From: a virus
Length of the DNA stretch: 64,000 nucleotides
Strand: one strand, 5' to 3'
IMG/VR virus record: IMGVR_UViG_3300027754_005993
Location: 53,773-117,772 of that record
The position numbers were made by a program, and so were the translations under genes. Shown piece after piece: positions 15,153 to 61,356 of the stretch (position 1 is the stretch's first letter; the number at the start of each line of letters is the position of its first letter). The notes under the pieces were generated by a model. That model saw nothing but the letters and a program-made list of their open reading frames with translations, was not told where the DNA came from and searched no databases.

Positions 15153-15185
15153 ACCCAGGGATGAAAGTCCCTGGGTTTTTCTTTT
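15153..15185 (+). terminator. Rho-independent terminator after gp23
   Basis: ACCCAGGGA (15153-15161) pairs perfectly with TCCCTGGGT (15168-15176) around the 6-nt loop TGAAAG, followed by TTTTTCTTTT. This is the clearest intrinsic terminator in the window and isolates the capsid message from what follows. Confidence 0.93.
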
Positions 15186-15192
15186 ATAAATA
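15185..15192 (+). promoter_or_regulatory. Late promoter placed 5 nt before an ATG
   Basis: Exact TATAAATA abutting the terminator T-run. With T4 spacing the first transcribed base (about 15198) is the A of the next gene's ATG, so the transcript would have no leader and no SD. Confidence 0.8.
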
Positions 15193-15197
15193 CTAGT

Positions 15198-15788
15198 ATG
15201 CCAAACAACAATCAGCAGATAATCCGAGATAATGTTCCAGCGAGCATTTTAAAAGATTTGCCTGGAGATATGTTATTTGAAAATAACTTTCAACCAACAA
15301 CAAATAATACTTTAACAAATAATAAGTTTAGATTTGTTATGACTCGTTGCCCAACTATGACATATTTTTGCCAAAGAGCAAATGTGCCATCATTGAGTTT
15401 TGGAACAAGTATTCAATCAAATCCAACTGGTGTGACAATCAAAAGACCAGGAACCTCCTATGTCTATGAGGATCTACAAATAGGGTTTTCTGTTGATGAA
15501 AATATGAAAAATTGGTTAGAAATTCACAACTGGATAAAGGATCTTGGTGTATCGTACAATAGCGCAACTGAAGTTTTAAATGAACATCAAAAGGTAGCAA
15601 GCGCATATTTACTTGTATTAAATAGTGCGTATAGACCAATGATTTCTTTTACATTTAAAAATGTATATCCAACATTTCTAAGTGGTATTGATTTTGATTC
15701 ATCATTAGCAGATACCGACACAATCATAGCAACCGCAACATTTTCGTACACTCACTATGAAGTGAATGTATTCACAAGCGAACCTTAA
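15198..15788 (+). CDS. Tail-tube-fold protein after gp23 (gp3 or gp54-like candidate)
   Basis: This 196-aa protein contains NKFRFVMTRCPTMTYFCQRA at about 42-61, NVPSLSFGTSIQSNP, then VYEDLQIGFSVDENMKNWLE. The pattern resembles the beta-barrel fold of tail-tube-type proteins (compare gp19 at 8204). In related phages the gene between gp23 and uvsY is usually annotated as tail completion gp3, but the tube initiator gp54 would also fit. It is expressed from an exact late promoter whose start coincides with the ATG, so translation is probably leaderless. Tail-protein class fairly sure; precise name not. Confidence 0.65.
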   Translation: MPNNNQQIIRDNVPASILKDLPGDMLFENNFQPTTNNTLTNNKFRFVMTRCPTMTYFCQRANVPSLSFGTSIQSNPTGVTIKRPGTSYVYEDLQIGFSVDENMKNWLEIHNWIKDLGVSYNSATEVLNEHQKVASAYLLVLNSAYRPMISFTFKNVYPTFLSGIDFDSSLADTDTIIATATFSYTHYEVNVFTSEP

Positions 15789-15799
15789 TCCCCTATACT
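15771..15799 (+). promoter_or_regulatory. Early sigma70-type promoter for uvsY
   Basis: TTCACA (15771-15776), 17-nt spacer, TATACT (15794-15799). Only 7 nt separate the -10 box from the uvsY ATG, so the transcript should start at or one base before the start codon. Confidence 0.65.
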
Positions 15800-15806
15800 T
15801 TACATT

Positions 15807-16241
15807 ATGAACATTGACCAAATAAAAGCACAAGCGGAACTTGATACTGTAATTGATGTCAACCACCTAGACGAAGAGTCTACGAAGGTTCCTCAGATTC
15901 ACAATAAATATCTTTGTATTCTTATGGATGAGAAACTCGTTCTTGAAAACTTTGAATCTAAACTCAAAGTACTCAAGCGTGATAAATGGTTATATTACTC
16001 TGGCAAATTGTCAGAAGAAGAACTAAAGAAGAAAGGTTGGGAACCATTTGGTCTTAACATTCTTAAGCAAGATCTTGATCGGTTCATTGACAGCGATTCT
16101 GAAGTCATTAACCTTTCAAATAAAGTATTTCTTCAAAAAGAAAAAGTAATATACATTGAAAGTGTCATCAAGATCATTTCAAACAAAATGTGGAATATTC
16201 GTTCAGCCATTGAATGGATTAAGTTTACCCAAGGCGTATGA
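15807..16241 (+). CDS. uvsY: Recombination mediator UvsY
   Basis: This 144-aa protein (T4 UvsY 137 aa) loads UvsX recombinase on gp32-coated single-stranded DNA. Typical features are the LxxxxxLDTVIDVNHLDEES start, a KWLYYSGKLSEEELKKKGW segment near 66-84, and the C-terminal helix IKIISNKMWNIRSAIEWIKF. It is followed without a gap by uvsW (4-nt overlap), the pairing seen in T4. It appears to be the first gene of an early transcript. Confidence 0.93.
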   Translation: MNIDQIKAQAELDTVIDVNHLDEESTKVPQIHNKYLCILMDEKLVLENFESKLKVLKRDKWLYYSGKLSEEELKKKGWEPFGLNILKQDLDRFIDSDSEVINLSNKVFLQKEKVIYIESVIKIISNKMWNIRSAIEWIKFTQGV

Positions 16242-21945: not shown

Positions 21946-22266
21946 ATGTCTAAAGTAGATACACTTAATTTTAGAGGAAAATTTCGGCAATATGATGTTG
22001 ATGGTCATCCTTATATTTATTTTATAGGTGATTCTGTTGAACACAATTCTCAAATTTATGTTTGTGTAAAGGCAACAACCACTAAAATTCCAGGAACACA
22101 GGAAGGTTCAGCATATTGGAAAGAAACTGGAGGAAATTTTGGTTTCTTTATTCAAGAACAATTACCAAAAAATGCTGAAGTTGGAGATAGATGGTATATT
22201 CCGTCTACAGCGATAATGTACACTTATGTTAAAGAAAGAAATAATGCTTTTTGGGTTGAATTATGA
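21946..22266 (+). CDS. Small protein with a fibre/carbohydrate-binding-like fold
   Basis: This 106-aa protein begins 3 nt after gp46. Residues about 24-62 (GDSVEHNSQIYVCVKAT...SAYWKETG) follow the Trp/Tyr pattern of small chitin/cellulose-binding-type modules. Residues about 81-105 (VGDRWYIPSTAIMYTYV...FWVEL) resemble the GDRWMDSDTGIEFVY...QWVQP element found twice in the collagen-like fibre at 39055. A virion-type module between gp46 and gp45 is unexpected. The gene contains the -35 box of the promoter for the next gene. Function unknown; possibly a displaced virion decoration protein. Confidence 0.6.
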   Translation: MSKVDTLNFRGKFRQYDVDGHPYIYFIGDSVEHNSQIYVCVKATTTKIPGTQEGSAYWKETGGNFGFFIQEQLPKNAEVGDRWYIPSTAIMYTYVKERNNAFWVEL

Positions 22267-22283
22267 TTAAAACATGGTATAAT
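22256..22283 (+). promoter_or_regulatory. Early sigma70-type promoter for the clamp operon
   Basis: TTGAAT (22256-22261), 16-nt spacer ending in TGG, TATAAT (22278-22283). The start near 22290 lies about 4 nt before ATG 22294. It probably drives the 59-aa gene, gp45, gp44, gp62 and regA. Confidence 0.75.
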
Positions 22284-52400: not shown

Positions 52401-54503
52401 ATGGCAAAAGTTTTATTAAAGAATTCCTTTACATCAGCATCTGTTCCTGCTGGTCTTTCTGCGGGTGAACTAGCGGTAAATGTAACCGATAGAAAATTAT
52501 TTGTTGGAAATGCCGTTGGTGGCGTTGTTACTCTTATTGACCCAAATGCACTTGTAACTTCAGTCAATGGAGCAACTGGTGCAGTAACAAACATCAATGC
52601 AGCAACTGTCACTACCACATCGTCCAATAGTTCTTCTACATTTTATCCCCTATTTGCTGGAGGAGCAGGAAACACTGCACTCTATGTGGACGATGTCACT
52701 ACACCATTTACATATGTTCCAAGTAGTGGTACATTAAATATAAGAAATTTAAATGCCCTTAATGGAAACACGGGTACTTTCCTTACTACATCTAACTTAG
52801 GAGTAGTGAATTCTCTTGATAGTACTGAGTTATCTATAAGTGCTTTAAATCATGTACCATCCTCATCAAATTCTTTTACTGTCAGTTCAACAAATTCATT
52901 AAAATTATCAGGATCAACTGTGCAATTTTATGGATCTGGTTGGGGATATACATTCCCAACATCAAATGGAAGTGCTAATCAAGTACTGACAACCAATGGA
53001 GCAACCCCAGCAACATTGACTTGGTCAACACCATCGAGTGGTATTACAACGGGGACTGCAAATACATTCACCGCACTCCAAACATTCTCTGCGGGTATTA
53101 CCTCAACTACACTATATGCCTCTGCTGGTGTGACATTTAATAGCACATCAGCACACACAGGTCTTGGTACATTCTCTGCTGGTATTACCTCAACTACACT
53201 ATATGCCTCTGCTGGTGTGACATTTAATAGCACATCAGCACACACAGGTCTTGGTACATTCTCTGCTGGTATTACCTCAACTACACTATATGCCTCTGCT
53301 GGTGTGACATTTAATAGCACATCAGCACACACAGGTCTTGGTACATTCTCTGCTGGAATAATCGCAACAGATACAACTGATGGAATTGGTGTTATTTCCA
53401 CAAAAGGTGCGCTTGATACATCACCTGCAAGAAACGGCGCAATTCGTTTAGGATATGTCAATAGTACTCCGTCGTATAATATATTGCTTAACAATGCATC
53501 TGGACTTTTTACAATTTATAATGGATTTAGTTCAACTGGATCCAACCTTCTCAATATTAATTCAACAGTCATGAATGTAAATGTTCCAGTTTCTGGAATG
53601 ACATTCACGGGCAACATCTCAGCACCAAACATTGTTACTGGTATATCTGGAGCGACTGGACCTATTGGTTTAGTTGCTGGTACAAATATTACTATTGCTC
53701 AATCGGGAAAAACATTTACTTTTTCTTCTAGTTCTAGTGGTGGAACACAGGTAGGAGTCACATCATCTGGTCAATTATTTGATGTTAAGAGTTGGGCTTT
53801 TTCGTATTGTGATTTCCATGGCGGACCAGGACCATTTGGTACTGTTCTTGGTGCTAGTGGTGGAGATGTTGTTTATTATGTAGATTCACCAGGTTCTCAC
53901 ATTTTCACTAATTATCAAAAATATACTGGTGTGGCATCTTTAAGAACTGGAGCGAGTGGAAGTTATGTTGCATTGGGTTGTGTAACACCAAGTGCTTCAT
54001 ATAGCACAGCTGTTGGACCATTTAGTATGGGTCTTACATTTGAATTTAGAACAAGAATTAGTACTGATTATGGTAACGATTCTACGGCTACAAATAATTT
54101 TACTATTTATGCTGGTGTGGATGAACAGTCTGCTTTGTATCCAACTTTTAATACAAGTAATGGAGCAGCTTGTTGGTTTGAATATAATCACGCTTCGAAT
54201 AGTGGAAATTGGACTGCCAACCTTTGTGAATATTTTGGAAGAACTGCTTCTGTTGGTACTACATTTGCCTATACTAATGCTGATAATAAATTTGATATAA
54301 TAAGAGGTATGAGTGGTGGAACAGGACACTTCTTCATGTATATCAATGGTGTTACTGTTGCTGGATTTAGTTTCGACCAAGGACTCCTTGGACAAGGTCA
54401 AGGAAATGCCAGAATTGTTGTAAGACGAACTGCATCTGCTGCCAGTGTAACTAGAAGAACATTCGTAGATTATCTTTCTATACTTCAGCAAAGGGGTACA
54501 TAA
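52401..54503 (+). CDS. Large modular fibre protein
   Basis: This 700-aa protein starts AKVLLKNSFTSASVPAGLSA, GELAVNVTDRKLFVGN, the same kind of fibre N-terminal domain as at 50121. It then has a TFYPLFAGGAGNTALYVDDV...YGSGWGYTFP block shared with fibre II, three tandem copies of a 29-residue unit (SAGITSTTLYASAGVTFNST...), and a region shared with the protein at 49223. The C-terminal 230 residues (FRTRISTDYGNDSTATNNFT; GGTGHFFMYINGVTVAGFSF) look like a beta-sandwich carbohydrate-binding or knob domain. It is a mosaic made of parts found in neighbouring genes. Confidence 0.78.
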   Translation: MAKVLLKNSFTSASVPAGLSAGELAVNVTDRKLFVGNAVGGVVTLIDPNALVTSVNGATGAVTNINAATVTTTSSNSSSTFYPLFAGGAGNTALYVDDVTTPFTYVPSSGTLNIRNLNALNGNTGTFLTTSNLGVVNSLDSTELSISALNHVPSSSNSFTVSSTNSLKLSGSTVQFYGSGWGYTFPTSNGSANQVLTTNGATPATLTWSTPSSGITTGTANTFTALQTFSAGITSTTLYASAGVTFNSTSAHTGLGTFSAGITSTTLYASAGVTFNSTSAHTGLGTFSAGITSTTLYASAGVTFNSTSAHTGLGTFSAGIIATDTTDGIGVISTKGALDTSPARNGAIRLGYVNSTPSYNILLNNASGLFTIYNGFSSTGSNLLNINSTVMNVNVPVSGMTFTGNISAPNIVTGISGATGPIGLVAGTNITIAQSGKTFTFSSSSSGGTQVGVTSSGQLFDVKSWAFSYCDFHGGPGPFGTVLGASGGDVVYYVDSPGSHIFTNYQKYTGVASLRTGASGSYVALGCVTPSASYSTAVGPFSMGLTFEFRTRISTDYGNDSTATNNFTIYAGVDEQSALYPTFNTSNGAACWFEYNHASNSGNWTANLCEYFGRTASVGTTFAYTNADNKFDIIRGMSGGTGHFFMYINGVTVAGFSFDQGLLGQGQGNARIVVRRTASAASVTRRTFVDYLSILQQRGT
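53082..53342 (+). repeat. Three 87-nt tandem repeats in the fibre gene
   Basis: Units 53082-53168, 53169-53255 and 53256-53342, 29 codons each. Units 2 and 3 are identical by eye and unit 1 differs at its start (TGCGGG for TGCTGG). A partial fourth unit follows. Confidence 0.9.
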
Positions 54504-54950: not shown

Positions 54951-54978
54951 TTGACTTGAATTGTATTTATGGTATAAT
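54951..54978 (+). promoter_or_regulatory. Early sigma70-type promoter for dut
   Basis: TTGACT (54951-54956), 16-nt spacer ending in TGG, TATAAT (54973-54978). Exactly 6 nt separate the -10 box from the dut ATG, so the usual start position is the A of ATG. Confidence 0.85.
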
Positions 54979-54984
54979 TGAGTT

Positions 54985-55503
54985 ATGGAATTAAAACTGT
55001 TTAAACTTCACAATAATGTCCATGAACCAAAATATGGTTCAGAGAATGCGGCATGTTTTGATCTCAGCGCATTTTTACATTATCAGGGATCAGTAAAAGC
55101 ATACACCAAAGAAAATGATCTTATGGAAATGCTTGTAACTCAGGATCCTGCTGGTAAGAATTATATTGATATTCCTGGTGAATGGAGAGTATTGATTCCT
55201 ACTGGATTGATCATGGATATTCCATGTAATCATTCTGTAAGAATTTATCCAAGATCTGGGATTTCTACCAAACAAGGGTTGAATCTTATTAATTGTGTTG
55301 GTATAATTGATTCTGATTATGTACATGAAGTTTTTATTCCTGTGTATAATACAGCACAGAAAAAGATCAGAATCTATGATAATGATAGAATTGCTCAGGG
55401 AGAAATGGTCTTTAATTACAAGACCTTAATTAATTTTACAAATGAAAGACCACTTGCGAGAGGTAATCGTGATGGTGGGTTTGGATCTACAGGAATACAA
55501 TGA
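54985..55503 (+). CDS. dut: dUTP pyrophosphatase
   Basis: This 172-aa trimeric-type dUTPase hydrolyses dUTP to dUMP, keeping uracil out of DNA and feeding dTMP synthesis. The conserved motifs appear in order: ENAACFDLSAF (motif 1, about 20-30), RIYPRSGISTKQGL (motif 2), NCVGIIDSDYVHEV (motif 3), RIAQGEMV (motif 4) and GNRDGGFGSTG (motif 5, the Phe-containing nucleotide lid, at the very C-terminus). A 25-residue insertion follows motif 1. It is the first gene of an early unit and apparently leaderless. It overlaps the methyltransferase gene by 4 nt. Confidence 0.92.
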   Translation: MELKLFKLHNNVHEPKYGSENAACFDLSAFLHYQGSVKAYTKENDLMEMLVTQDPAGKNYIDIPGEWRVLIPTGLIMDIPCNHSVRIYPRSGISTKQGLNLINCVGIIDSDYVHEVFIPVYNTAQKKIRIYDNDRIAQGEMVFNYKTLINFTNERPLARGNRDGGFGSTGIQ

Positions 55504-56837
55504 ATACAGCAAAACTTGATGATGTTGTGAACTTTCTGAAGAAGTTCGCTGGTGATGATGGTATACCAATTATTGGTGGAACTGATTGGGAAGAGATGAA
55601 TACTCTCTTCAAGAAAGAAGAAATCAAAGAAGGAATGGCAGAATATATTTCAAAGTATTCTGTATTATTTCCTTTTAGACAAATTCCAATTGAAGACTCC
55701 GAAAAGAAATTTCGTGAACTTCGTGCTGCTCCGCATATGGAATTTATTATGCGTGAATCGGGAGAAGTCGTTGAAAAATATGAGGATTACAAATATCCAT
55801 ATTCAACTCATGGTAAATTTGTAATTTCATTTGGTCATTATTTCAATGACATTAGCAATTACTATCATCAACGCAATCGCTATGATTGCGGATCGCATGG
55901 ATTTGTTTCTCCAAATGAATACTGGTATTCTCCCGACCTACTCAAGAAAATGAATTGGACATTCTGGAGAATGGAAGATCGTGGAATCAATCATGGAAAG
56001 ATTCGTGGATCCTTTCGTCTTGGAGCATATGTTGCTACTCAGTTTAAACCACAAGTAGCAAAGACAATCTTTGATTTTGTTAAGTTCAAGGTAAAGGCTC
56101 ATCAATTCCGTGTTCTTGATTTTAGTATGGGGTGGGGAGATCGCCTTGCAGGATTTTATACATCAAAGGCGACTCAGTATCTGGGAACAGATCCAAATCC
56201 AAGTGTATTTCGTGTATATAAGGATCAGTGTATTGCATATGAAAAACTAATCAGTGGTAAGGATCCAATTATCACTGATTTTCAAAAAGAAGTGAATGGG
56301 CATTTCTATGATGCTTTCCGTTGCGTTGGTTCTTCTGGTAAAGAAGTGATTGTGTACAATGCTCCTGCTGAAGATATCCTTGATGTTGTTCGCGCTAATA
56401 AATATGATTGTATCTTTACATCTCCTCCATATTTTGCAACTGAACTATATGATGAGGGTGGAGATGATTGGAAACAGTCTTGGTTTCGTTACAGCGAATA
56501 TGACAATTGGTGGAATAAGTTCTACGCACCAGTAATGAAAGCGTGTTATGAATCCCTTACCGACAATGGAGCGATGATGATTAATATCATGGATCCACAT
56601 GTATATGGTAAACGATATAATACATGTGATCAGATGGTAGATTATATCAAGAGTCTTGGTGGAACATTTGATGGTCAGATTGGAATGAGAATCAAGCAGC
56701 GTCCAAAAAATGTTGATGCTGCTGATCTTAAAGAACATTTAACCACAACCTTTATTGAGAATATTTGGTGTTTTTCCAAGAATGGATTTGACTTATCCCC
56801 AGGATTTGCTACACTAGAAGGACTATTTGGAGACTAA
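55500..56837 (+). CDS. Putative DNA methyltransferase with an SPPY motif
   Basis: This 445-aa protein has a SAM-dependent fold: VLDFSMGWGDRLAGFYTSKA with motif I-like sequence near residues 205-224, GTDPNPSVF, and the catalytic motif FTSPPYFATELY near 309-320, as in N4-cytosine/N6-adenine amino-methyltransferases. It has a long N-terminal region (1-195) without a recognised domain and no restriction partner. Such solitary enzymes can protect phage DNA or act on modified bases. It sits between dut and a DUF1599 gene, so a DNA-base metabolism role is sensible. Confidence 0.75.
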   Translation: MNTAKLDDVVNFLKKFAGDDGIPIIGGTDWEEMNTLFKKEEIKEGMAEYISKYSVLFPFRQIPIEDSEKKFRELRAAPHMEFIMRESGEVVEKYEDYKYPYSTHGKFVISFGHYFNDISNYYHQRNRYDCGSHGFVSPNEYWYSPDLLKKMNWTFWRMEDRGINHGKIRGSFRLGAYVATQFKPQVAKTIFDFVKFKVKAHQFRVLDFSMGWGDRLAGFYTSKATQYLGTDPNPSVFRVYKDQCIAYEKLISGKDPIITDFQKEVNGHFYDAFRCVGSSGKEVIVYNAPAEDILDVVRANKYDCIFTSPPYFATELYDEGGDDWKQSWFRYSEYDNWWNKFYAPVMKACYESLTDNGAMMINIMDPHVYGKRYNTCDQMVDYIKSLGGTFDGQIGMRIKQRPKNVDAADLKEHLTTTFIENIWCFSKNGFDLSPGFATLEGLFGD

Positions 56838-56838
56838 T

Positions 56839-57147
56839 ATGACTCGTGATGAACTTTTTAAAATGCATGAAGATATGTGTTGCTCTGCACTTGACCTTAT
56901 GAGAAAAAAGAATGCAGACTACGCTGGCAGTGGTAGTGATCCCTTTGCGAACTTTCGTCGTGCAGAAGCATTGGGGGTTTGCTCCACTGAGCAAGCATTC
57001 CTTGTTCGCATGACCGATAAGATGTCACGATTGACATCATTCGCCAGCAGAGGGAAATTGAGTGTTGAAGATGAAACCGTGTATGATACTCTAGAAGATT
57101 TGATCAATTACTCTGTGCTGCTTGCAGCATACCTAAAATCCAAATGA
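56839..57147 (+). CDS. DUF1599-like nucleotide metabolism protein
   Basis: This 102-aa protein carries KKNADYAGSGSDPFANFRRA, QAFLVRMTDKMSRLTSFASR and EDLINYSVLLAAYL, characteristic of DUF1599. The family is related to MazG-like nucleotide pyrophosphohydrolases and often lies among phage nucleotide genes. I chose ATG 56839 because TTGGAG lies upstream; a TTG further up (56827) would overlap it. The enzyme activity is inferred. It overlaps gp43A by 4 nt. Confidence 0.78.
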   Translation: MTRDELFKMHEDMCCSALDLMRKKNADYAGSGSDPFANFRRAEALGVCSTEQAFLVRMTDKMSRLTSFASRGKLSVEDETVYDTLEDLINYSVLLAAYLKSK

Positions 57148-58625
57148 ATTTCTATACAAATGTATTTTATGATTTCAAGTCCATTCTTTATGCAGAAAAA
57201 GAGAATGGCATAACTGTCTATAGGAGTGAGGAATATGTTCCAAGCGTTTATCTGCCGTCTAAAAAGAAAACTGATTCTCTTTCGATTCATGGTCAGTATG
57301 TTCATGAAATGACATTTGATTCTTATCAGTCATACAAGGAATTCTCTGAGAAGTATGCTGATGTCCCCAATTTTGAGATTCATGGTGATATTCAAACCGA
57401 ATATCAGTTCATCAATCGCAAATATGGAACTGATATTTCCTATGATTTTTCACAGATAGACATCATGTATATTGACATTGAAACCACCTCTGAGAAGGGG
57501 TGGCCTTCAATTGAAGATCCTGAAGAAGAGATCATTGCGATTACTGTATTTTCCAGTAAGCATGGAAATGCAACTTTCTGTCTTGGTATATTCAATCCTG
57601 GCGATATGGATATCAAGGTATTTGAATATCAAGATGAACAGAAACTACTCAGAGAATTCCTTGAATACTTTGCCAAGAATTATCCCGATGTTGTGAGTGG
57701 TTGGAACATTCGTTTCTTTGACTTTCCATATCTCATCAAGAGAATCAAAAAGGTTCTTGGACATAAAGCAGCAAAGATGCTTTCTCCTTGGGGTATTCTA
57801 AAGGAAAAGTATATCACTCGCAATGGTAAGGAAGATCTGATGTATGATATCATCGGAGTCTCCATGCTCGACTACTTTGAAGTCTACAAGACATTCACAT
57901 ATGTCAATCAGGAATCTTATCGTCTTGATCATATTGCGTATGTTGAATTAGGTCAGCGTAAATTGGCATATGATGAATACGAGAGTATGAATGAGTTCTA
58001 CAAGAAGGATTTCCAGAAGTTTATTCAGTATAATATCCGAGATGTTGAACTCGTTCAGAAATTGGAAGAGAAGTTAAAGCTTATAGAACTCTCTGTGGCA
58101 CTTGCATATTCAGCAGGAGTTAATTTTCAGGATGTATTCTCTCAGGTTCGTACATGGGATGTAATCATCTATAATTACTTGAGCAAGAAGAACATCGTCA
58201 TTCCTCCCAAGAAGAGGGGACGAAAGGATGAGCAATATGCTGGTGCTTATGTCAAGGAACCTCTTGTCGGTATGCATGAATGGGTAGTATCCTTTGACTT
58301 GAATTCACTTTATCCGCATCTCATCATGCATTATAATATTTCCACAGAGACAATCACACCCGATGAAGTGCGTGGTCTTATTTCACCAGATGCTATTCTC
58401 AAAGGTGATGTTGTTGCCACTAAATTAATACAACAATTCAAGGAAAAGAATCTATCCGTTGCTGCCAATGGGACAACCTATCGCAAGGATATTCGTGGAT
58501 TCTTACCAGAACTTATGGATACGATGTATCAAGAGCGTAAAACATTCAAAAATAAAATGATTGAATCGCAAAAACATTTAGAGGAAATCACTAAGGAACT
58601 CATGCGTAGGGCATTGACAAAGTAA
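57144..58625 (+). CDS. gp43A: Split DNA polymerase, N-terminal part gp43A
   Basis: This 493-aa protein holds the N-terminal domain, the 3'-5' exonuclease and the first part of the polymerase of a family B enzyme. Exonuclease motifs: YIDIETTS (Asp111/Glu113), NIRFFDFPYL (Asp193) and YNIRDVEL (Tyr296/Asp300). Polymerase motif A is FDLNSLYPHLI (Asp385, Tyr390), then KDIRGFLPELM, and the fingers helix YQERKTFKNKM. It ends at a proper TAA after a helical ITKELMRRALTK, within the fingers. The rest is gp43B at 60205. Together the parts are 876 aa (T4 gp43 898 aa). No intein motifs are seen. Confidence 0.93.
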   Translation: MNFYTNVFYDFKSILYAEKENGITVYRSEEYVPSVYLPSKKKTDSLSIHGQYVHEMTFDSYQSYKEFSEKYADVPNFEIHGDIQTEYQFINRKYGTDISYDFSQIDIMYIDIETTSEKGWPSIEDPEEEIIAITVFSSKHGNATFCLGIFNPGDMDIKVFEYQDEQKLLREFLEYFAKNYPDVVSGWNIRFFDFPYLIKRIKKVLGHKAAKMLSPWGILKEKYITRNGKEDLMYDIIGVSMLDYFEVYKTFTYVNQESYRLDHIAYVELGQRKLAYDEYESMNEFYKKDFQKFIQYNIRDVELVQKLEEKLKLIELSVALAYSAGVNFQDVFSQVRTWDVIIYNYLSKKNIVIPPKKRGRKDEQYAGAYVKEPLVGMHEWVVSFDLNSLYPHLIMHYNISTETITPDEVRGLISPDAILKGDVVATKLIQQFKEKNLSVAANGTTYRKDIRGFLPELMDTMYQERKTFKNKMIESQKHLEEITKELMRRALTK

Positions 58626-58641
58626 AGTTTTCTGGTATAAT
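58614..58641 (+). promoter_or_regulatory. Early sigma70-type promoter at the end of gp43A
   Basis: TTGACA (58614-58619), 16-nt spacer ending in TGG, TATAAT (58636-58641): full consensus in both boxes. Only 6 nt precede the SpoU ATG, so the start falls on that ATG. It overlaps the last codons of gp43A. Confidence 0.9.
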
Positions 58642-58647
58642 AGACGG

Positions 58648-59187
58648 ATGGAAACGAGGAACATTATTGACTACTTTCATTACTGGACGCACGAAGCGAT
58701 TATTGCAGATCTTGATGCAAAACGGAATAATTTTACCGTTCTTTGCAGCAATCTTTACAATGATTTCAACATCGCTACAGTCATTCGTAACTCAAATGCG
58801 TTCCTCGCGAAGCAGGTGATCCTATACGGATCCAAGCAGTATGATCGCCGTGGCACTGTTGGAACACATCATTATACTAATTTCATTCATGCCAAGACTT
58901 TTACCGAACTAGATGAAAGAATGAAGATTCTTCGTCAGACCTATGGTACGGTAAAGATCATCGGCATAGATAATGTTCCAGGTGCTACGGCGATTGATAC
59001 TTTTGAATGGAACACAAATACACATTATGTTCTAGCGTTCGGTCAAGAACAAGTCGGTCTACCAACAGAAATCCTCGACATCTGTGATCACATCTTGTAT
59101 ATTAAACAATATGGAACTGTCAGGAGTCTGAATGTAGGAACCGCGAGTGGTATCGCAATGTACGCACTCGCAAGTAATGTGTTTTAA
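58648..59187 (+). CDS. SpoU/TrmH-family RNA 2'-O-methyltransferase
   Basis: This 179-aa SPOUT enzyme methylates ribose 2'-OH in tRNA or rRNA. Motif 1 is DFNIATVIRNSNAF (Asn/Arg residues near 35-48), motif 2 ALAFGQEQVGLP-like sequence near 130-142, and motif 3 LNVGTASGIAMYALA near the C-terminus, which form the knotted SAM site. It lies between the two halves of the polymerase. Its stop codon (59185-59187) is immediately followed by the first base of tRNA-Gln, so it may act on the neighbouring tRNAs; that is inference. Apparently leaderless. Confidence 0.88.
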   Translation: METRNIIDYFHYWTHEAIIADLDAKRNNFTVLCSNLYNDFNIATVIRNSNAFLAKQVILYGSKQYDRRGTVGTHHYTNFIHAKTFTELDERMKILRQTYGTVKIIGIDNVPGATAIDTFEWNTNTHYVLAFGQEQVGLPTEILDICDHILYIKQYGTVRSLNVGTASGIAMYALASNVF

Positions 59188-59258
59188 TACCCCGTGGTGA
59201 AATGGTATCACAGAAGCCTTTGGAGCTTCTTTTCTTGGTTCGAATCCAAGCGGGGTAG
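59188..59258 (+). tRNA. tRNA-Gln (UUG)
   Basis: Folds fully: acceptor TACCCCG/CGGGGTA, D stem GTGA/TCAC, anticodon stem GAAGC/GCTTC with loop CTTTGGA (anticodon TTG), 4-nt variable loop, T stem CTTGG/CCAAG with TTCGAAT, discriminator G. No CCA is encoded. It reads CAA, a common codon in this AT-rich phage. Confidence 0.93.
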
Positions 59259-59263
59259 TTTTT

Positions 59264-59336
59264 GGGGATGTAGTCCAATGGCAGAGACAAATCACTTAAA
59301 ATGATTCCAGTGTGGGTTCGAGTCCCACCATCCTTA
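59264..59336 (+). tRNA. tRNA with Leu (UAA) anticodon, short variable arm
   Basis: Acceptor GGGGATG/CATCCTT (two G-U pairs), D stem GTC/GAC, anticodon stem AATCA/TGATT with loop CTTAAAA (anticodon TAA), variable loop CCAGT (5 nt), T stem GTGGG/CCCAC with TTCGAGT, discriminator A, no encoded CCA. Bacterial tRNA-Leu normally has a long (class II) variable arm, which is absent here. Confidence 0.85.
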
Positions 59337-59356
59337 TTAAATCGGAGACGACGATA

Positions 59357-59599
59357 ATGTATGGAATTATGACCAAACTGAACAACTTCGTTGACGACAA
59401 CCTGAAAGACTCCTTGGGAGTACCTCGTAAGGGCGTTCTGGCATTTAAGAAGAAGACTAGTGCGGTCACCGAATGTGATGCCCTGAATGACCTCCTGACG
59501 ACTAAGAAAACTAAACCATATGTGGTTGCCAAGTTTCCAGAAGATGAAACCTCATCATATGGATTTATTGTGGATGGTGTGTGGAAGCAAAAATTATAA
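59357..59599 (+). CDS. Hypothetical 80-aa protein in the gp43 cassette
   Basis: ATG 59357 (MYGIMTKLNN) has GGAG at 59344-59347. Upstream frame belongs to the tRNA. The protein is basic in the middle (RKGVLAFKKKTS) and ends VDGVWKQKL. It has a probable helix-strand arrangement without a recognised family. Codon use is noticeably richer in C/G-ending codons at the start than in the neighbouring genes. Short genes of this type are common beside phage tRNAs. Confidence 0.6.
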   Translation: MYGIMTKLNNFVDDNLKDSLGVPRKGVLAFKKKTSAVTECDALNDLLTTKKTKPYVVAKFPEDETSSYGFIVDGVWKQKL

Positions 59600-59602
59600 A
59601 TA
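59595..59602 (+). promoter_or_regulatory. Late promoter inside the gp43 cassette
   Basis: Exact TATAAATA overlapping the end of the 80-aa gene. The predicted start near 59608 gives a 14-nt leader with SD AAGAGGA for the gene at 59622. Confidence 0.75.
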
Positions 59603-59621
59603 CTTCATAAGAGGAACAATT

Positions 59622-59981
59622 ATGGAATGTATTTCGAAATTACTGACACTTCAAAACCAACTTCGCGTTCACCATTGGCAAACACCATCATATGCTGAAC
59701 ACAAAGCATTGGGTAAGGCATACGCAGGATTGGATCCACTAATTGATACCTTTGTGGAAACATATATGGGCAAGTATGGAAAAGATACACAGCAGAATAG
59801 AAGTATTGATCTACAAGGGTACGAAACTGCTCATCCAATGCCAGTATTGAAGTATTTTGAAAATTATTTAATCAATGAACTTCCAAACGATTTGTCTGAA
59901 CAAGATACAGAACTTTTAAATATTCGCGATGAAATGTTAAGTGTTCTCAATCAGACTAAGTATCTCTTGACTCTACATTGA
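59622..59981 (+). CDS. DUF5856-like, ferritin-like-fold protein
   Basis: This 119-aa protein has LTLQNQLRVHHWQTPSYAEH and KALGKAYAGLDPLIDTFVET, a pattern like the first helices of Dps/ferritin-like proteins (the HHWQT motif is shared by a phage family I recall as DUF5856). The remaining part is helical and acidic. It lacks a clear full ferroxidase site, so iron storage is not claimed. It has its own late promoter and lies inside the split polymerase locus. Start ATG 59622 after AGAGGA. Confidence 0.7.
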   Translation: MECISKLLTLQNQLRVHHWQTPSYAEHKALGKAYAGLDPLIDTFVETYMGKYGKDTQQNRSIDLQGYETAHPMPVLKYFENYLINELPNDLSEQDTELLNIRDEMLSVLNQTKYLLTLH

Positions 59982-59995
59982 GTTTGTAGTATCAT
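59967..59995 (+). promoter_or_regulatory. Early sigma70-type promoter before the last cassette gene and gp43B
   Basis: TTGACT (59967-59972), 17-nt spacer, TATCAT (59990-59995). Again exactly 6 nt to the ATG at 60002. It could provide gp43B, uvsX and gp41 independently of gp43A. Confidence 0.65.
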
Positions 59996-60001
59996 GTGTG
60001 A

Positions 60002-60244
60002 ATGATTTACGAGTTTAAAAATCCAATTCCTGTAACCACACCTATGGGTGATGGTTATATTTTATATGTTCGCGATGGCGGAACATGGGAAAACGATATT
60101 TTCGCCGTGGTCTTGACTGAAGGTGGAACGATTCGGCATTTTAGAAGTGATCAGTTGAATGTTTGGGCGAATGCCACCTTTGGAATTAAAAAGGATTCTA
60201 CATTATGTCAAAAGACTACTCCAAGTTCACCGATGCCCAACTAA
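60002..60244 (+). CDS. Hypothetical 80-aa protein overlapping gp43B
   Basis: Starts MIYEFKNPIPVTTPMGDGYI, with strands LYVRDGGTWENDIFAVVLTE and IRHFRSDQLNVWANATFGIK, a small beta-barrel-like outline known from phage hypothetical proteins near replication genes. The last 13 codons overlap the start of gp43B in another frame (60205-60244), and the SD of gp43B (AAGGAT) lies within it, so translational coupling is likely. No function recognised. Confidence 0.65.
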   Translation: MIYEFKNPIPVTTPMGDGYILYVRDGGTWENDIFAVVLTEGGTIRHFRSDQLNVWANATFGIKKDSTLCQKTTPSSPMPN

Positions 60245-61356
60245 TGGCACTGAAAAAACAAACTGAACATGATATATCCAAGTATCATAATTTTCAGTTG
60301 GTTCGCAAGATTCAGTTAAACTCCGCTTACGGTGCGATAGGGAACCAATATTTTAGATATTATTCTACCGAACTCGCAGAGGCGATTACTCTGTCGGGTC
60401 AATTGTCAATTCAATGGATCGGTCAAGAACTAAACAAATATCTCAACAAGATTATTGGCACTACCGATGTGGATTATGTGATTGCATCAGATACAGATTC
60501 TGTTTATCTGTGTCTTAATAATCTAGTCTTGAAGGTATTTCCAAACACAGGTCTTTTTGATGGAAAACCAGTTTCGCGACCACCGACAAAGACCGTAGTT
60601 GATTTCTTAGATAAGTCTGCGGAACAGGCGATCATTCCATTCATTGAGAAGAAGTTTGCTGAACTCGCACTCACCATGAATGCATACGAGAACAAAATGC
60701 AGATGGGTCGGGAAGTCATTGCCGACAAGGGAATATGGACTGCCAAGAAACGGTATATGTTGAATGTTTGGGATTCTGAAGGTGTGCGCTATGCAGAACC
60801 TAAACTCAAGATCATGGGAATTGAAACTACTCGTTCTTCAACTCCAGAGTTTGTCCGTAAGCATCTTAAGAAGGCTATCAATATTACCATGAATGGCACT
60901 GCACAGGATATGATAGACTTTGTTGAGAAGTGTCGTAATGAATTTTACGCACTGCCTCCAGAGGATATTGCATTTCCTCGTAGCGTAAACGGATTGGAAA
61001 AATATATTGATCGTTCTGCAATTTATAAAAAATCAACACCTATTGCCGTAAAGGGTGCTTTGATTTACAATCATTATCTTGCTAAATTCAAGATTGGTAA
61101 GAAATATAGGAAGATTATTGAAGGAGATAAGATTAAATTTCTAATGCTCAAGAAACCAAATCCTGTTGGTGGTTGCATTGGAGAAGATCAGGTTATTTCT
61201 TTTCCAAATGTTCTTCCAAAAGAATTTGAACTTGAGAAATATATTGATTATAAAACGCAATTTGAGAAATCTTTTATTGATCCTCTGACCGCCATTCTAG
61301 ATACTATTGGGTGGTCAACTGAAAAGAAAAATACATTAGAAAACCTATTTGGTTGA
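60205..61356 (+). CDS. gp43B: Split DNA polymerase, C-terminal part gp43B
   Basis: This 383-aa protein continues gp43A. It starts with a fingers helix (FTDAQLMALKKQTEHDISKY) and motif B LVRKIQLNSAYGAIGN (Lys35, Asn39, Tyr42, as in T4 Lys560/Asn564/Tyr567). Motif C is VIASDTDSVYL (Asp96/Asp98), and the thumb and a C-terminal NTLENLFG peptide of the clamp-binding type follow. Start ATG 60205 has SD AAGGAT. Each half lacks one catalytic aspartate motif, so the two must assemble for activity. The stop is followed by uvsX. Confidence 0.93.
   Translation: MSKDYSKFTDAQLMALKKQTEHDISKYHNFQLVRKIQLNSAYGAIGNQYFRYYSTELAEAITLSGQLSIQWIGQELNKYLNKIIGTTDVDYVIASDTDSVYLCLNNLVLKVFPNTGLFDGKPVSRPPTKTVVDFLDKSAEQAIIPFIEKKFAELALTMNAYENKMQMGREVIADKGIWTAKKRYMLNVWDSEGVRYAEPKLKIMGIETTRSSTPEFVRKHLKKAINITMNGTAQDMIDFVEKCRNEFYALPPEDIAFPRSVNGLEKYIDRSAIYKKSTPIAVKGALIYNHYLAKFKIGKKYRKIIEGDKIKFLMLKKPNPVGGCIGEDQVISFPNVLPKEFELEKYIDYKTQFEKSFIDPLTAILDTIGWSTEKKNTLENLFG

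Follow-up and report, generated by a model that had tools for sequence, protein, structure and literature searches.

Sigma70-type promoters set against start codons mark a conserved, predicted leaderless gene class in T4-like phages

A T4-like virus of uncultured bacteria carries a class of genes whose sigma70-type promoters end 6-7 nt before the ATG, a spacing that is enriched above shuffled sequence, retained among divergent relatives and accompanied by a near absence of Shine-Dalgarno (SD) motifs. From this geometry we infer, with a probability of roughly 0.8, that selection has positioned strong promoters for transcription to begin at the first base of the ATG, giving mRNAs that are translated without a leader. 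The window analysed, i.e., the whole stretch of 64,000 nt, runs from base 53773 to base 117772 of a virus record 117,772 bases long, referred to below as the contig.

Promoter-gene pairs in the window and contig

An earlier note on this DNA, made from the sequence alone, described four promoters of common geometry, and direct reading bears this description out, with gaps between -10 box and ATG of 6 nt (dut, SpoU, gene 60002) and 7 nt (uvsY). The features are as follows:

54951..54978, plus strand: dut promoter, TTGACT-16-TATAAT (-10 box 54973-54978), 6 nt to ATG 54985
54985..55503, plus strand: dut, dUTPase, predicted leaderless (PF00692, 1.8e-17; phrog_135, 3e-35)
58614..58641, plus strand: SpoU promoter, TTGACA-16-TATAAT, 12/12 matches (-10 box 58636-58641), 6 nt to ATG 58648
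58648..59187, plus strand: SpoU-family RNA methyltransferase, predicted leaderless (PF00588, 4.9e-24)
59967..59995, plus strand: gene 60002 promoter, TTGACT-17-TATCAT (-10 box 59990-59995), 6 nt to ATG
60002..60244, plus strand: 80-aa protein of unknown function, predicted leaderless, read from ATG 60002
15771..15799, plus strand: uvsY promoter, TTCACA-17-TATACT (-10 box 15794-15799), 7 nt to ATG 15807
15807..16241, plus strand: uvsY, recombination mediator, predicted leaderless (PF11056, 1.2e-25)
22256..22283, plus strand: fifth cited promoter, 10 nt to ATG 22294, outside the class
Contig 23290 (L003:3490), outside the window: gp33-like promoter, TTGACT-16-TATACT-7-ATG, 7 nt from the ATG

The last entry serves a gp33-like late-transcription coactivator (PF16805) and adds a class member, whereas the fifth promoter, which the earlier note had counted in, has to be removed, as its gap of 10 nt is not enriched. 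The product of gene 60002 has no match in Pfam or PHROG, and the gene overlaps the start of the open reading frame (ORF) for the C-terminal half of the polymerase. The -35 box of the SpoU promoter overlaps the end of the preceding polymerase ORF. At its other end, the SpoU stop (59187) directly adjoins tRNA-Gln, which begins at 59188, so SpoU, tRNA-Gln and tRNA-Leu are probably one transcript.

The earlier note was also right that the majority of the remaining genes either have an SD or run into the gene before. SD-like motifs precede 31 of the 64 window genes examined, a further 19 overlap the previous gene or start no more than 5 nt after its stop, and only 14 have neither, among them all four of the claimed genes. 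Because the same contig also carries strong promoters with longer, SD-bearing leaders, the promoter-on-ATG arrangement represents a class and not a rule. Its members are dut, uvsY, spoU, the gp33-like gene and the 60002 family, to which relatives add polymerase (both halves), RNase H, UV endonuclease and an IMPDH/GMP-reductase-like enzyme; altogether, the same gap precedes about 30 different gene families. The genes served belong mainly to replication, repair and nucleotide functions, which is consistent with early or middle use, although timing was not tested; that the promoters act early is deduced from their sigma70-type consensus and from the kinds of gene they serve (replication, recombination and nucleotide functions), and remains unproven.

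Enrichment of the 6-7 nt gap

A gene start was counted if a sigma70-like promoter (at least 10 of 12 matches) lay 6-7 nt upstream, and dinucleotide shuffles of the 60 nt upstream of starts provided the null model. The contig has five such starts against 0.30 (maximum 2) after shuffling, and ten contigs with shared anchor genes together have 36 against about 2.3. The lack of a genome-wide excess of this spacing, which the earlier note had named as grounds for refutation, is thus not what was found. When promoter-gene pairs from all fetched loci were pooled and near-duplicates removed, 50 fell at gap 6 and 29 at gap 7; gap 0 accounted for 18, no remaining gap exceeded 9, and gaps 1-5 and 8-12 were sparse. 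One promoter match inside a tRNA gene (L073:3619) was rejected as a false positive of the scan.

Among isolate phages, the Pelagibacter T4-like phages HTVC008M (NC_020484) and Mosig (MT647606) have three gap-6/7 promoters each, DLP6 has two, and ACP17 and S-CREM1 have one each; none was found in Cr30, phiM12 or V45v66, and no gap-6/7 start in T4 or Syn9. These counts carry several qualifications. Relatives were fetched via anchor genes, which introduces an ascertainment bias that affects whole-contig scans less; four contigs (G001, G005, G008, G009) have no polymerase match and may be only partly related; and per-contig enrichment rests on one to six genes, leaving single contigs such as G001 weak.

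Conservation in relatives

Among relatives, the two promoter boxes and the distance to the ATG are retained, while the sequence between them drifts. Identity for spoU is 0.89 in the -35 box and 0.97 in the -10 box, compared with 0.47 in the spacer and 0.34 in the discriminator, and the values for dut are similar (0.90, 0.95, 0.50 and 0.38, respectively), so that in both genes the discriminator changes in sequence at fixed length. The uvsY promoter is less clear in this respect (discriminator identity 0.69). The gap is 6 nt in 14 and 7 nt in one of 15 distinct spoU promoters of relatives, 7 nt in 11 and 6 nt in three of 14 distinct uvsY relatives, and 6 or 7 nt in 10 distinct dut promoters; the dut geometry is retained in L088, L097, L099, L104 and L105, for example. 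Nearly all spoU, dut and uvsY relatives show protein homology from residue 1-3 onward, which indicates that the annotated ATGs are the real starts. The arrangement is not obligatory, since some relatives of these three genes have lost it or have SD leaders (it is missing in L011, L035, L094, L098, L138, L163 and L177-L184).

The DNA polymerase gp43 is itself divided into two ORFs (57144-58625 and 60205-61356) that match separate PHROG families (phrog_2062 and phrog_1918), with about 1.6 kb holding SpoU, two tRNAs and small genes between them. In some relatives, the C-terminal half has its own promoter 6-7 nt before the ATG (L017:5203, L030:2640).

Start-site signatures and competing explanations

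Transcription start sites usually prefer a pyrimidine-purine step. A pyrimidine precedes the ATG in 44 of 50 gap-6 genes (P 3e-7) and 24 of 29 gap-7 genes (P 1e-3), against a background of 54%, a bias to be expected from initiation on the A of this codon; this evidence is indirect, no 5' end having been mapped. SD motifs occur upstream of 1 of the 79 gap-6/7 genes versus 32 of 76 genes with gaps of 13-40 nt (P 4e-11). All these P values are optimistic, as the sequences compared are related and hence not independent. In class genes, the -10 box has its first T 12-13 nt before the ATG, and a distance of about 12 bp between this T and the start codon is a published leaderless signature in bacteria (PMC3160421). 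Two criteria of such TA-led genes, namely -10 placement above chance and no SD upstream, are fulfilled, whereas a transcription start on the start codon and translation from the 5'-terminal AUG are inferred.

In the mechanism proposed, the host polymerase would bind TTGACN-16/17-TATAAT and initiate at a Y-A dinucleotide, using the A that lies 7-8 nt beyond the -10 box; the resulting mRNA would have AUG at its very 5' end and lack an SD. This AUG would then be recognised directly by the ribosome, as in leaderless initiation, a 70S-type route not being established. Because no 5' end has been mapped and the host is unknown, the choice of start site is deduced from rules of the E. coli type.

A different account holds that compaction alone pushed promoters against ATGs to save space, the exact start being irrelevant and ribosomes binding the unstructured 5' region independently of an SD. 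The dense packing of the window, where the 19 genes mentioned above overlap or nearly touch their predecessors, and the running of two of the cited -35 boxes into an upstream ORF both accord with it. Compaction nevertheless predicts a spread of gaps, not a sharp peak at 6-7 nt with sparse neighbours on both sides, and it leaves unexplained a discriminator kept in length without its sequence and the enrichment of Y before A; we consider it unlikely. Less plausible still is the proposal that the promoters mainly serve downstream units, with the adjacent ATG poorly or never translated. Although tRNA-Gln and tRNA-Leu directly follow SpoU and gene 60002 overlaps the polymerase C-terminal half, the adjacent genes encode conserved proteins with homology from their first residues, and some 30 different families share the gap. 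Chance in an AT-rich genome, with which the near-expected number of promoter-like matches in the region (79 versus 72.6 shuffled) and the 18 gap-0 matches resembling AT-rich coincidences would agree, is refuted by the 36 starts against about 2.3 in shuffled upstream regions and by conservation across divergent relatives, and can be dismissed. Transcription starting on the AUG thus remains the preferred reading.

Late boxes set on the ATG

The leaderless-type class is not confined to early-type promoters, as a late TATAAATA box at a gap of 5 nt is conserved too:

15185..15192, plus strand: late-type box TATAAATA, 5 nt to ATG 15198
15198..15788, plus strand: tail-tube-like protein, predicted late leaderless (PF06841, weak and below cut-off, E 0.0012)

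The box stands at gap 5 in nearly all relatives of gene 15198 found, some with less than 60% protein identity. Across the ten contigs, late-box gaps form two groups, one at about 5 nt without an SD and the other mostly at 14 nt or more and mostly with an SD. HTVC008M has five gap-5 late boxes before an ATG and Mosig two, whereas no late box lies nearer than 13 nt in T4 or 15 nt in Syn9. The cultured hosts of these Pelagibacter phages make the late-box and promoter pattern testable. A hairpin and T run (15153-15184) lead straight into the late box of gene 15198, and most relatives have a similar hairpin and T run at this place.

The earlier note had treated the class as one of early genes starting on their AUG. 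The start on the AUG is supported by the spacing, the free discriminator, the Y before A, the lack of an SD and the tRNA junction that replaces the promoter in some relatives, while the restriction to early-type promoters does not stand.

tRNA-to-ATG junctions

In relatives, ORF starts cluster 1-3 nt after the 3' end of the preceding tRNA (44 of 117 pairs; 30 of 88 when non-redundant), with a trailer that is usually T, TT or TTT and no encoded CCA. In ten isolate genomes, only 1 of 32 tRNA-ORF pairs is at such a distance (Syn9, 3 nt). The criterion of tRNA punctuation, i.e., a start codon 0-3 nt from a tRNA 3' end, recurrent and over background, is therefore met in relatives and not in the window, where the gene that follows the two tRNAs (ATG 59357) has an SD; the contig has one tRNA-Gly followed by an ATG after 1 nt. 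The spoU gene and the 60002 family occur in a promoter form or a tRNA form depending on the phage, the latter family having either a gap-6/7 promoter or an ATG right after tRNA-Leu (L212, L214-L216). This switching suggests that the bare 5' AUG is the thing kept. Separately, tRNA-Leu 3' ends that are nearly identical lead through TT into the ATGs of several unrelated ORFs (L016, L024, L029, L037, L048, L110, L113), as if cassettes had been swapped at this end of the tRNA.

RNase Z cleavage would leave a 5' phosphate. Leaderless translation has been reported to need one (PMC9031893). That the 5' ends of post-tRNA genes are made by tRNA cleavage is our inference. Relatives appear to have, besides the promoter, a second route through the late TATAAATA box 5 nt before the ATG and a third through cleavage of a CCA-less tRNA 1-3 nt before it. 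Whether the T4-like lineage depends on leaderless mRNAs, with the bare AUG conserved across three ways of making the 5' end (promoter, late TATAAATA box and tRNA punctuation), is a broader proposition for which we see the odds as even.

Phage identity and host

The T4-type core genes gp43 polymerase, gp23 capsid, uvsY and the gp33-like coactivator are present, and the T4-like set of the window comprises polymerase, UvsY, dUTPase, a gp23-type capsid protein and late TATAAATA boxes. A megablast search of the region against phage records gave no match. Neither WhiB nor PsbA was found when looked for in the ten contigs, and a gp23 search of genome contigs for the host returned only two MAG contigs, from phyla unrelated to each other. 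CCA is encoded in 1 of 61 tRNAs of contigs G000-G007 (loci L002-L004, L219-L259) versus 64 of 65 in seven proteobacterial control phages (T4 left out), a weak hint of a non-proteobacterial host that does not demonstrate one.

Comparison with known systems

Studies of leaderless translation have usually dealt either with individual phage repressors or with certain host chromosomes that show the trait. Apparent selection for a bare 5' AUG in replication and nucleotide genes of a T4-like phage lineage suggests a use during infection, e.g., translation independent of an SD or of the full initiation-factor set. The genomic signature is simple and could be compared with RNA data. Gene-prediction programs relying on an SD would misjudge starts of this kind. 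No paper on a leaderless early class or on tRNA punctuation in phages was found, which is weak evidence given partial literature coverage; the AR9 paper, with reference to a study in E. coli, remarks of phage transcripts that they "are often leaderless".

T4 and the Kyanoviridae cyanophage Syn9 likewise have early promoters of sigma70 type and late promoters with TATAAATA boxes; both differ in having no gap-6/7 starts and no late boxes as close to the ATG. In animal mitochondria, excision of tRNAs (tRNA punctuation) produces mRNAs whose start codon is preceded by 0-3 nt, a system covered by works cited in PMC4633059. The tRNA junctions described here offer a possible bacterial-virus parallel; unlike in mitochondria, tRNA punctuation in the phages is only predicted, for some genes, and with T, TT or TTT trailers. 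The lambda cI transcript from PRM starts at the AUG and, like the mRNAs predicted here, is a phage mRNA beginning with AUG; it represents the single repressor gene of a temperate phage, whereas the present class spans many genes of T4-like phages. It is treated as a leaderless mRNA in the literature (PMC9031893). TA-led leaderless genes, a common feature of Actinobacteria and of Deinococcus-Thermus (Zheng et al. 2011, PMC3160421), bear a close likeness: they too lack an SD and have a TATAAT-like -10 box whose first T falls about 12 bp ahead of the start codon. Those genes are a trait of host chromosomes, whereas the genes described here form a class within a T4-like phage lineage and, unlike TA-led bacterial genes, have a near-consensus -35 box at mostly 16-bp spacing. 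Leaderless translation of this known kind is the best explanation of the arrangement, which is unusual as a conserved class in T4-like phages.
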